A DNA stretch of 64,000 bases from Bordetella sp. BOR01 (lineage in GTDB: Bacteria > Pseudomonadota > Gammaproteobacteria > Burkholderiales > Burkholderiaceae_B): NCBI RefSeq assembly GCF_019218885.1, contig NZ_JAHUWT010000003.1:1116001-1180000 (forward strand). Reading direction: 5' to 3'. Of this stretch, positions 57,764-60,877 are shown piece after piece. Position 1 is the first letter of the stretch. Every line of letters starts with the position of its first letter. The notes under the pieces were generated by a model. It was not told the DNA's origin and searched no databases. It saw nothing but the letters and a program-made list of their open reading frames with translations. The position numbers and the translations under genes are program-made.

Positions 57764-58513
57764 CTAGCTGCGCACCTGGGTGGACATGGGCAGGGGCTGA
57801 TCGGCCATGCCGTCGCCCGAACTGACCAGCGCATAGTTGTACCCCTGCCCCGACCAGTAGCGAGCCAGCAGGTCGCCATCGCGCCGGCTGCCTTGCGGCA
57901 GCATCAGCTTGCCGGGCCCGGGCGGACGAATGTAGAAGGTGGCTCGCTGCCCGGCGTTTTCGTAGATCACGATGGCGGCCGGCCCTTGGTCAGTGGCCAG
58001 CAAGCGTGCGGCAACCGGCTTGAAGCCGCTGGCGCTCAGGTCGGGCAAGCGCTGCGCATCGGCGAAATAATCGTCCAGCCAGCCCTGCAGGTCGCCCGCG
58101 TCGGCGCGCACATCGGGCCGCGGCGCTTGCGCCGAGGCAAACAGGCGATAGGCCTGAACCGCGTCTTGCATGGGCAGCACGCGGTGTGCCATGGCCGTAT
58201 CGCGCACACCCCAACCCGTGATGCCGCCGATGGCCAGCGCCGCGACCAGGCTGGCCGCCGTTGCCAGCCGGCGCCGGGTGCGGGCGCGCAACCGCGCCCG
58301 CACGGCGGCGGGATCCAGGGCGGGGTTGGGCGGCAGGGTATCCTGGCTTGCGATGAAGCGCAGCCGCTGCGCATCGCGCGACCAGGCACCGAGCTCTTTC
58401 GCCTGATCGGGATGTGCCTGCAGATAGGCTTCGATGTCTTGCCGCTGCGCGGCATCGAGCTTCCCATCCACAAACGCGTTGCGCGTGAGATCGTCCATCG
58501 AGCGCTCGTTCAT
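57764..58513 (-). CDS. Anti-sigma factor, membrane-anchored
   Basis: This is a 249-residue single-pass protein: a cytoplasmic N-terminal part (MNERSMDDLTRNAFVDGKLDAAQRQDIEAYLQAHPDQAKELGAW), a membrane helix near residues 83-101 (LATAASLVAALAIGGITGWG) and a periplasmic C-terminal domain. There is no HxxxCxxC zinc motif, so it is not a ZAS-type redox sensor. The gene overlaps the ECF sigma gene by four bases, the typical co-expressed pair. The periplasmic domain would sense the signal or a partner. Confidence 0.88.
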   Translation of the reverse strand: MNERSMDDLTRNAFVDGKLDAAQRQDIEAYLQAHPDQAKELGAWSRDAQRLRFIASQDTLPPNPALDPAAVRARLRARTRRRLATAASLVAALAIGGITGWGVRDTAMAHRVLPMQDAVQAYRLFASAQAPRPDVRADAGDLQGWLDDYFADAQRLPDLSASGFKPVAARLLATDQGPAAIVIYENAGQRATFYIRPPGPGKLMLPQGSRRDGDLLARYWSGQGYNYALVSSGDGMADQPLPMSTQVRS

Positions 58514-59070
58514 TTCAGTATCCTCAAATGGGGGGGCTGCCCCTCGCTCAAGTCCCGCAATGCGCGCCGCGCGCGCGACAGGCGCGACATCACGGTGCCC
58601 AGCGGAATGTCGAACAGATCGGCCACCACCTTATAGCTCAGGCCTTCCACACTGATCAGCCACAGCAATGTGCGCTGGGCTTCGGGCAGGCGCTCGAAGG
58701 CGTCCAGCGAAGATCGGGCCAGCGCCTGGCGTTCGGCCGACGGTGCTGTCGCATCGGTACCGGCGAACCAATCGAGCAGCCGGCCATAACGGCGCGCCCG
58801 GCGTTGGGAATCGAGAAACTGGCGGTACAGAATCATGAATAACCAGGCCCGGATGTTTCCTTCCGGGCGCCGGCCGGGCCATCGCGTCAAGGCTCTTTCC
58901 AGGGTTGACTGGACCAGGTCGTCGGCCGACGCCGGGTCGTGCGTCAGCCGCAAGGCAAACCGTCGCAGCCGCGGCAAGAGCAGGCGCAGCACGGCATCGG
59001 ACAGCTCATCGCCCTGGATGGCATCGTCAGATACGGGGTGGGGTAAAGAAGAGCGTGCCGGCCGGATCAT
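58510..59070 (-). CDS. RNA polymerase ECF-family sigma factor
   Basis: This 186-residue sigma-70 family factor has region 2 (LRRFALRLTHDPASADDLVQSTLERALTRWPGRRPEGNIRAWLFMILYRQFLDSQRR) and region 4 helix-turn-helix (GLSYKVVADLFDIPLGTVMSRLSRARRAL). It is encoded divergently from the peroxidase-cytochrome b561 pair. GGAATAA-type elements on both sides of the gap suggest that it drives itself and that pair. The neighbourhood resembles known ECF groups tied to catalase-like and cytochrome b561 genes. Confidence 0.92.
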   Translation of the reverse strand: MIRPARSSLPHPVSDDAIQGDELSDAVLRLLLPRLRRFALRLTHDPASADDLVQSTLERALTRWPGRRPEGNIRAWLFMILYRQFLDSQRRARRYGRLLDWFAGTDATAPSAERQALARSSLDAFERLPEAQRTLLWLISVEGLSYKVVADLFDIPLGTVMSRLSRARRALRDLSEGQPPHLRILK

Positions 59071-59128
59071 GTGGGGGGTTCCTGTTCAGACCAGCGCCCG
59101 CGGCGCTACAGACTTACAGGCCAATATA

Positions 59129-59192
59129 GTAAGACGCCGCTCGAATCGGTTTATTCCATCGGGGAATAATTTCCTTGGACGATGCGTCTTAC
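59129..59192. promoter_or_regulatory. Divergent ECF promoter pair built on one palindrome
   Basis: TTATTCC (59151-59157) and GGAATAA (59163-59169) form a mirror pair separated by five bases, giving a -35 element for each direction. Each is followed by CGTCTTAC: plus strand at 59185-59192 after 15 bases, minus strand at 59136-59129 after 14 bases. The plus copy points to the peroxidase gene, the minus copy to the sigma gene. Identical -35 and -10 sequences in both directions strongly suggest recognition by one ECF sigma factor. Confidence 0.75.
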
Positions 59193-59231
59193 AGGGTATT
59201 CGTCGCCCTCAGGGCCAAGGAGCTTTACCTG

Positions 59232-60335
59232 ATGCAGCAAGAACCCCAACGCGAAGCCCGGCCGCTCGATGCCCGGCAAATCTGCCTGCGCCTGGGCGCG
59301 ATCGGTGCCGTCGTGCTTGTGTCGGGTACCGCATTCGCGTTCGTGGGCGGTTGGCTGGACCCGCAGCGGCTGACTCCCGACCGGGTGGTCGATGCCCTGG
59401 AAGCAAATAGCGGCCGCCATGAAGGCTACCGCCGCAACCATGCAAAAGGCGTCTGTGTCGCGGGCCATTTCGAAAGCAACGGCGCGGCGCAAGCCCTGTC
59501 CACGGCAGCGGTCTTTGCGCCGGGCAACACCCCGGTCGTGGGGCGGCTGGCCGTGCCGGGCGGCAATCCGTACGCATCGGACTCCAGCGCGCCCATCCGC
59601 AGCTTTGCATTGCGCTTTACTTCTGCCAACGGCGAACAATGGCGTACCGGCATGAACAGCATGCCGGTATTCGTCGTGGCGACGCCACAGGCGTTCTACG
59701 AGCAGCAACTGGCCGCGCATCCCGATCCCAAGACAGGCAAGCCCGATCCGCAGCGCATGCAGGCCTTTTTTGCCGCGCATCCGGAAACCGCGGCCTTCCG
59801 GGCATGGGCCAAGACGGCCAAGCCATCGGCCAGCTACGCCACCGAGAGCTATCACGGCCTGAATGCCTTTTATTTCATCGATGCGCAAGGCAAGCGGCAG
59901 CCTGTACGCTGGCACTTGGCGCCCTTGGACGCAACACCGGCACCTGCTGCCCTGCCGCAGCACGATGCCGATTACTTGCAAGCCGACCTGCAGCAACGCC
60001 TTGCCCAAGGGCCTCTGCGCTGGCGCCTGCTGGTCACCCTGGGCGCGCCGGGCGACTCCACCAGCGACGCGACCCAGCAGTGGCCGGCGGACCGGCCCAC
60101 CGTCGATGCGGGCACCGTCGTCATCACGCGCAGCGCCTCGCAAGATGAAGGCCCCTGCCGCGACGTGAATTACGACCCGACCGTGCTGCCCCGCGGCATC
60201 GCCATCTCTGACGACCCGATACTGGCGGCCCGTTCGGCCGCCTATGCCGCATCTTACGAGCGCCGCACCAGCGAAGGGCCGCCGCCGGCTGCCCCGGCGC
60301 CATCCCATCCGACCCGCCAGGAGCACGCACAATGA
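59232..60335 (+). CDS. Catalase-related peroxidase (SrpA-like), exported
   Basis: This is a 367-residue haem protein of the catalase-related, SrpA-type subgroup. Near the start, residues 24-44 form a hydrophobic signal anchor (LGAIGAVVLVSGTAFAFVGGW), so it faces the periplasm. The distal histidine lies in GYRRNHAKGVCVAGHFESNG, and SFALRFTSANGEQWRTGMNSMPVF and GLNAFYFIDAQGKRQPVRWHLAP match the catalase core. The ATG at 59232 has AAGGAG nine bases upstream; an earlier TTG at 59175 would place the promoter -10 inside the gene. It overlaps the cytochrome b561 gene by four bases. Confidence 0.88.
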   Translation: MQQEPQREARPLDARQICLRLGAIGAVVLVSGTAFAFVGGWLDPQRLTPDRVVDALEANSGRHEGYRRNHAKGVCVAGHFESNGAAQALSTAAVFAPGNTPVVGRLAVPGGNPYASDSSAPIRSFALRFTSANGEQWRTGMNSMPVFVVATPQAFYEQQLAAHPDPKTGKPDPQRMQAFFAAHPETAAFRAWAKTAKPSASYATESYHGLNAFYFIDAQGKRQPVRWHLAPLDATPAPAALPQHDADYLQADLQQRLAQGPLRWRLLVTLGAPGDSTSDATQQWPADRPTVDAGTVVITRSASQDEGPCRDVNYDPTVLPRGIAISDDPILAARSAAYAASYERRTSEGPPPAAPAPSHPTRQEHAQ

Positions 60336-60877
60336 GCCCAGCACCCCAACGGTATCCGGCGGGATTCAGCCTGCTTGCGCGCCTGCTGCATTGGCTGATG
60401 GCGGCCGGCATTCTTGCCATGCTGTTCATCGGCGTGGGCATGGTCGCGTCGGTTTCCGAGCGGCATCAGTGGTTGATGCAGATCCACAAGCCCCTGGGCG
60501 TGGCATTGCTGGCGCTGGTCTGTATACGCCTGGCCACGCGCCTGTACAAGGGAACGCCGGCCTTGCCGTCCGCCATGCCGGCGTGGCAACGCCAGGCGGC
60601 CCATGCCTCGCATGTGCTGCTGTATGCGCTGATGTTCGCCATGCCGCTGATCGGGTGGGCGATGGTGTCGGCCGGGGGCTATCCGGTGGTGGTGGGAAAC
60701 TGGCTATTGCCGCCTATCGCGCCTGCCGACGCCGCGCTGTTCGCATGGCTGCGCGGCGCGCACCGGTATCTTGCCTTCCTGCTGTTTGCCACCGTGCTGC
60801 TGCATCTTGCCGCCGCGCTGTTCCATGGCTGGATACGGCGCGACGGCGTACTGCAGTCGATGACACGCGGGCGTTGA
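60332..60877 (+). CDS. Cytochrome b561 (CybB-like)
   Basis: This is a dihaem inner-membrane cytochrome of 181 residues with four helices. Candidate haem histidines are in LARLLHWLMAAGILAMLFIG, MQIHKPLGVALLALV, ASHVLLYALMFAMPLIGW and RYLAFLLFATVLLHLAAALFH. It is translationally coupled to the periplasmic peroxidase gene and probably supplies it with electrons from the quinol pool, a setting seen for other catalase-related peroxidases. Confidence 0.92.
   Translation: MSPAPQRYPAGFSLLARLLHWLMAAGILAMLFIGVGMVASVSERHQWLMQIHKPLGVALLALVCIRLATRLYKGTPALPSAMPAWQRQAAHASHVLLYALMFAMPLIGWAMVSAGGYPVVVGNWLLPPIAPADAALFAWLRGAHRYLAFLLFATVLLHLAAALFHGWIRRDGVLQSMTRGR

Follow-up and report, generated by a model that had tools for sequence, protein, structure and literature searches.

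Divergent genes for an ECF sigma factor and a catalase-fold peroxidase in Bordetella sp. BOR01 raise the question of what the sequence between them is for: two promoters, one palindromic operator, or a switch between the two transcripts. We addressed this question in the window, by which we mean the whole 64,000-nucleotide stretch of DNA analyzed here, and in related loci from other genomes. The reading in which we have high confidence is that two ECF26-type promoters lie back to back, one serving autoregulation of the sigma factor and the other a peroxidase-cytochrome b561 operon. We favor it because the sites are conserved, are nearly restricted to loci with a neighboring sigma gene, and stand between operons whose genes overlap. 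Recognition of both promoters by the adjacent sigma factor is inferred from these comparisons.

Genes and promoter boxes of the divergent locus

The sigma factor (186 aa, 58510..59070, minus strand) consists of sigma regions 2 and 4 only, as expected of an ECF26 member (Pfam Sigma70_r2, 2.4e-13; Sigma70_r4_2, 3.1e-14); no region 3 was found among its Pfam matches. Among the 25 NCBIfam matches shown, it passed the general sigma70-ECF model and the named sigma families were below their cut-offs. Its stop codon is overlapped by the ATG of the next gene on the same strand (58513->58510), which encodes a putative anti-sigma factor of 249 aa (57764..58513) with one transmembrane-like segment from residue 83. 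In the ECF26 group, the downstream gene is expected to encode an anti-sigma factor with an N-terminal anti-sigma domain, a single transmembrane segment and a C-terminal domain in the periplasm. The protein of the window has no Pfam match, and two NCBIfam anti-sigma models match it weakly, below cut-off. Control through a thiol switch, as in zinc-anti-sigma factors, is unlikely here, since the putative anti-sigma factor is free of cysteine and the aligned anti-sigma stretches of 76 relatives (duplicates included) contain either none (31 sequences) or one (45 sequences).

On the plus strand, the peroxidase gene (59232..60335) is preceded by AAGGAG at 59217-59222 and encodes a catalase-fold protein of 367 aa (Pfam Catalase, 1.7e-27) with an N-terminal transmembrane-like segment from residue 21, as judged by hydropathy. 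Residues H70, N142, R334 and Y338, which we take to be the catalase haem residues, are invariant in 13 of 13 aligned sequences, that of the window included. The peroxidase stop codon overlaps the ATG of a gene for a prokaryotic cytochrome b561 (181 aa, 60332..60877, plus strand; Pfam Ni_hydr_CYTB, 3.6e-30), for which hydropathy gives four transmembrane-like segments.

Direct reading of positions 59129-59192 confirmed two divergent copies of GGAATAA...CGTCTTAC with 5 bp between their -35 boxes, in agreement with the initial annotation. The predicted ECF promoter of the sigma/anti-sigma operon (59129..59157, minus strand) is composed of GGAATAA at 59157->59151, a 14-bp spacer and CGTCTTAC at 59136->59129, and that of the peroxidase-cytochrome b561 operon (59163..59192, plus strand) of GGAATAA at 59163-59169, a 15-bp spacer and CGTCTTAC at 59185-59192. 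The two promoters had been described as identical, which is accurate for the -35 and -10 boxes on both strands and not for the spacers. Likewise, the reported 19-bp mirror is a real 19-bp element, TTATTCC-ATCGG-GGAATAA at 59151..59169, made up of both -35 boxes and the 5-bp center ATCGG, and is correctly called an inverted repeat, of perfect 7-5-7 form and centrally placed in the divergent gap. From the positions of the boxes, transcription is predicted to start at about 59125-59123 on the sigma side and at about 59196-59198 on the peroxidase side. Beyond the promoter boxes, close relatives also conserve the sequence just 3' of each -10 box, GGGTATTC at 59193-59201 on the peroxidase side and ATTGGCCTGTAAG at 59113-59128 on the sigma side.

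Both sites agree with the ECF26 consensus given in PMC6180224, namely GGAATA at -35 and GT at -10, and so do 71 of the 74 regions compared below, an agreement of sequence only. On a simple match scale with weights of our own making, scanned over spacers of 13-16 bp, each site scores 12.5. Dinucleotide shuffling of the 161-bp gap, repeated 3000 times, gave at most 11.5 for a single site and 10.0 for a two-strand pair. The genome search for GGAATAA-N14..17-CGTC that had been suggested with the initial annotation gave six matches in 6.18 Mb, two of them in the sigma/peroxidase gap, against one match for the reversed pattern. Since the shuffles never reached the score of either site and the motif is rare across the genome, a chance match was rejected. 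Two of the six GGAATAA sites (L005 and L006) have a spacer of 16 bp. A larger regulon defined by the relaxed pattern GGAAT-N16/17-CGTCT was also rejected; it gave 15 matches against six for the reversed control, and much of this is probably noise. Testing the relaxed matches for open frames was uninformative, as frames of at least 150 codons span every site, real ones included.

Conservation of the pair and of its distances

A search of the family, covering 151 genomes, and one of the phylum, covering 398, each contributed their 30 best loci, and a contig scan contributed the best 80 of 592 relatives. Among the 80 divergent rows obtained, six repeated an intergenic sequence and were dropped, so that 74 distinct intergenic regions between a sigma gene and the peroxidase gene remained. 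Of these, 71 contain both sites; 65 passed on both sides at a threshold of 10.5, and six more, missed at first because the sigma protein alignment had overrun the promoter, passed on a wider scan. The pair is absent from the other three regions (L100, L104 and L107), in which the sigma factor is only about 40% identical. Three further promoter regions from the search of the genus (e.g., L225 of G549, with a gap of 5 bp) are outside the 71. As a control, we used peroxidase loci in which the examined flank (1.4-3 kb upstream) contains no such sigma gene; of the 43, 29 are at 58% or more identity to the window peroxidase and 14 at 31-46%. A peroxidase-side site scoring at least 10.5 was present in three (L080, L109 and L112), all from Pseudomonas. 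The contrast between 71/74 and 3/43, together with the ECF26 consensus, strongly supports the earlier proposal of ECF promoters for autoregulation and for the peroxidase-b561 output. The three regions lacking the pair and the three Pseudomonas loci count against it.

Other arrangements were seen among the relatives. In Dyella and Rhodanobacter loci (L039 and L040 among them), the peroxidase and cytochrome b561 genes occur together without the promoter sites and without such a sigma gene in the examined flank. L021 and L079, whose intergenic regions are identical, have the peroxidase-side promoter in tandem duplicate, 42 bp apart.

The distances within the pair differ greatly in their constancy. 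The spacer is 14 bp on the sigma side in 70 of the 71 loci and on the peroxidase side in 69, the window being one of the two loci with 15 bp on the peroxidase side. L131, which has an adjacent sigma gene, has 15 bp on both sides, and the window is the only locus with unequal spacers. The distance between the two -35 boxes, on the other hand, varies widely: 25 loci have 3-9 bp, one has 13 bp, 41 have 23-35 bp and four have 63-157 bp (for L021, the 65 bp counted here reach to the outer of its tandem peroxidase promoters, whereas measuring to the inner one gives 23 bp). Since the spacer is nearly fixed while the gap runs from 3 to 157 bp, each -35 box is paired with its own -10 box and not with the other -35 box. 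A quickly built sigma tree, weak at many of its forks, places the window in a clade whose 12 rows all have a gap of 4-5 bp; on this tree the tight state requires a minimum of six changes, three of them forced by well-supported branches. L077, L079 and L081, from records named Bordetella or Achromobacter, fall in the wide-gap group.

These distances bear on two other readings of the locus. The palindrome could be the operator of an unrelated DNA-binding regulator, for which its perfect 7-5-7 symmetry and its place in the center of a divergent gap speak. Yet the half-sites of relatives drift away from each other and not from their own CGTC boxes, their spacing is not conserved over the 71 loci, and single copies of the motif precede msrP and a second sigma operon (see below). 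With half-sites that separate so freely, a palindromic operator was rejected, and we consider it extremely unlikely; the palindrome is better seen as incidental, arising where two -35 boxes abut in the window's lineage. The "one palindrome" of the initial annotation thus does not stand as a unit, as 46 of the 71 loci have their -35 boxes more than 9 bp apart and keep both promoters. The annotation had further suggested that the two polymerases would compete at the 5-bp distance and that the arrangement could act as a switch; on this reading, they would exclude each other and the region would alternate between production of the sigma factor and of the peroxidase. The uniformly tight gap in the window's clade and the recurrence of tight gaps in several groups count in favor of such a switch, but the idea is not supported: the 46 wider loci, where both promoters are still present, speak against it, as does Burkholderia cenocepacia, where the likely equivalent gene pair is co-induced (PMC2830190), though the Burkholderia loci that we fetched are of the wide type. 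A switch is accordingly very improbable in our estimate. Competition between polymerases at a 5-bp gap is physically possible without being a conserved part of the design, and a local crowding effect in the window's clade is conceivable because all of its 12 rows share the 4-5 bp gap.

A paralogous sigma factor, msrP and the spacer split

The 15-bp spacer of the window's peroxidase promoter, unlike that of nearly all relatives, may mean that this promoter is weaker or that it is read by another sigma factor. Two further genomic copies of the motif have the same spacer. GGAATAA-N15-CGTC stands in promoter position before an operon (L002, G000:C22:1254168) in which a paralogous ECF gene comes after one encoding a secreted Lipoprotein_15 protein, and likewise before msrP (L001, G000:C11:681645; NCBIfam equivalog MsrP), the gene of a periplasmic methionine sulfoxide reductase, downstream of which a frame resembles msrQ by eye. 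Occurrence of the motif at both msrP and the Lipoprotein_15/ECF operon suggests a regulon responding to oxidants in the cell envelope.

A family search for the paralog listed 30 loci, and in 29 of them the operon promoter has a spacer of 15 bp; the thirtieth (L220) has no convincing site. Among the 30 best msrP loci, 15 have an upstream site scoring at least 10, with a spacer of 15 bp in 12 and of 14 bp in three. A score of 10 at msrP is within reach of chance, yet 14 of the 15 sites lie 62-87 nt before the start. The genus is represented by nine genomes, all of which were searched. The genome of the window has both sigma factors, with spacers of 15 bp at msrP and at the peroxidase gene and of 14 bp at the sigma gene, and G123, G141 and G081 have both sigma factors with 14 bp at msrP and at the peroxidase gene. 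G548 has the paralog only and a 15-bp msrP site, and G549 and G103 have the window-type sigma factor only, no msrP site and a 14-bp spacer at the peroxidase gene. G053 has a 66%-identical window-type sigma factor with a 14-bp promoter of its own, no close paralog and a 15-bp msrP site; G015 has neither sigma factor and no site. The msrP site thus tracks the paralog in eight of the nine genomes, being present in five of five with the paralog and absent from three of four without it. A different neighbor was observed at L129, where a sigma relative is divergent from the gene of a periplasmic protein that looks DUF305-like by eye, with no peroxidase; the site on the sigma side has a 14-bp spacer and the opposite one a 15-bp spacer.

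One possibility is that different sigma factors read the two halves of the pair, the adjacent one using the 14-bp site and the paralog (G000:C22:1254630) using, mainly or in addition, the 15-bp site together with msrP. The palindrome would then join two regulons, one of them under the lipoprotein-linked paralog. Such a division would agree with the 15-bp spacer of nearly all the listed paralog operons, with the distribution of 15 and 14 bp in the window's own genome, with the msrP sites that follow the paralog across the genus, and with the similar combination of a 14-bp and a divergent 15-bp site at L129. In G123, G141 and G081, msrP and the peroxidase gene again share one spacer length, here 14 bp, in the presence of both sigma factors. 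In Bacillus subtilis, moreover, spacer sequence affects ECF selectivity, as cited in PMC7083833. Several observations point the other way. The -10 box of the window's peroxidase promoter is CGTCTTAC, the same as that of its sigma partner, versus CGTCTGTAG at the paralog operon. With 15 bp on both sides beside its sigma gene, L131 indicates that a sigma factor of this kind can probably use the longer spacer, and overexpression of RpoE4 in Sinorhizobium meliloti is reported to raise both ecfR4 (15-bp spacer, log FC 4.1) and sorT (14-bp spacer, log FC 4.4). G053 combines a 15-bp msrP site with a window-type sigma factor that has a 14-bp promoter and no close paralog. Finally, a change of 1 bp in one genome could represent drift or a sequence error. 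As to the latter, the window and eight relatives align without a gap from the -35 box to a conserved GGTATTC, which indicates that the -10 box was shifted by one base in a fixed frame, something that a single sequencing indel would not produce. Sigma linker length showed by eye nothing clear in relation to the spacer split in an alignment of 17 window-type and nine paralog-type sequences. On balance, reading of the two halves by different sigma factors is unlikely. The more far-reaching proposal, that spacers of 14 and 15 bp form a code separating two ECF26-type paralogs whose -35 boxes are the same and whose -10 boxes nearly so, that the palindrome in this species combines one promoter of either type, and that a one-base change rewired the peroxidase to the paralog also controlling msrP and hence periplasmic methionine repair, is speculative and appears quite unlikely. 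The spacer split between the paralogs is nevertheless the part of these results most deserving of a bench test.

Proposed working and comparison with known systems

In the preferred reading, in which both back-to-back promoters depend on the adjacent sigma factor, we are most likely dealing with the usual ECF arrangement, that of autoregulation together with a divergent target; comparison of loci now supports it broadly. The membrane anti-sigma factor would release the sigma factor in response to a signal that is probably an oxidant outside the cytoplasm. Leftward initiation by the holoenzyme would yield more sigma and anti-sigma factor, and rightward initiation a membrane-anchored catalase-type peroxidase and cytochrome b561, the latter of which may pass electrons from the quinol pool to the peroxidase.

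The locus is a clear example, open to testing, of a compact promoter pair shared by an ECF sigma factor and its output, and the 71 loci show the distance from -35 to -10 to be constrained and that from -35 to -35 to be free. It also connects ECF26-type control with msrP and with an envelope module of peroxidase and cytochrome b561, and the 14/15-bp split supplies naturally occurring promoter variants with which to study how paralogous ECF factors separate their regulons. A search of titles and abstracts, with most subscription journals outside its coverage, returned no published description of a peroxidase-b561-ECF promoter pair.

Among characterized systems, the BcrS/AbcS pair of Brucella melitensis (PMC8315932) is similar in being an autoregulated ECF/anti-sigma pair that drives an operon of MsrP/MsrQ homologs on exposure to HOCl. 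It differs in its promoter boxes, TGTAAC and GCGAAT, and the main text of that paper mentions neither "catalase" nor "cytochrome b561". A closer gene arrangement is reported from biofilms of B. cenocepacia J2315, in which the sigma gene BCAL3478 is divergent from the putative catalase gene BCAL3477 and the two have highly similar expression after H2O2 treatment (PMC2830190). The qPCR values there, read as those at 15, 30 and 60 min after H2O2, are 1.7, 6.5 and 23.1 for BCAL3477 and not significant, 5.5 and 16.6 for BCAL3478; NaOCl altered neither gene. The authors took the late catalase peak as a sign of indirect induction, and we found no promoter described for the pair in PMC2830190. Judging from gene names and layout, BCAL3477 and BCAL3478 are likely orthologs of the peroxidase and sigma genes studied here. 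If so, the B. cenocepacia data would argue for co-induction and not for exclusion, with the limit that the fetched loci named Burkholderia in which the pair was found have their -35 boxes 25-26 bp apart (107 bp in one), versus 5 bp in the window.

The ECF26 sigma factors of S. meliloti (RpoE1, RpoE3, RpoE4 and RpoE6; PMC6180224) provide the closest parallel for the promoters themselves. The main text of that study does not contain the word "catalase", and a sulfite oxidase operon is the top RpoE4 target; we found no back-to-back palindromic promoter pair named there. In other respects the likeness is extensive. The S. meliloti promoters, which have been mapped, are of the form GGAATA...CGTC, and rpoE4 is preceded by GGAATAA-N15-CGTCTC. 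The sigma factors are encoded in operons with anti-sigma factors, several are self-activated, and paralogs cross-activate each other, which we count as a likeness (PMC6180224). The same source includes a cytochrome b-like target (SMc01022), an rpoE6 gene divergent from a target, and a putative lipoprotein gene upstream of rpoE1, resembling the paralog locus in the genome of the window.
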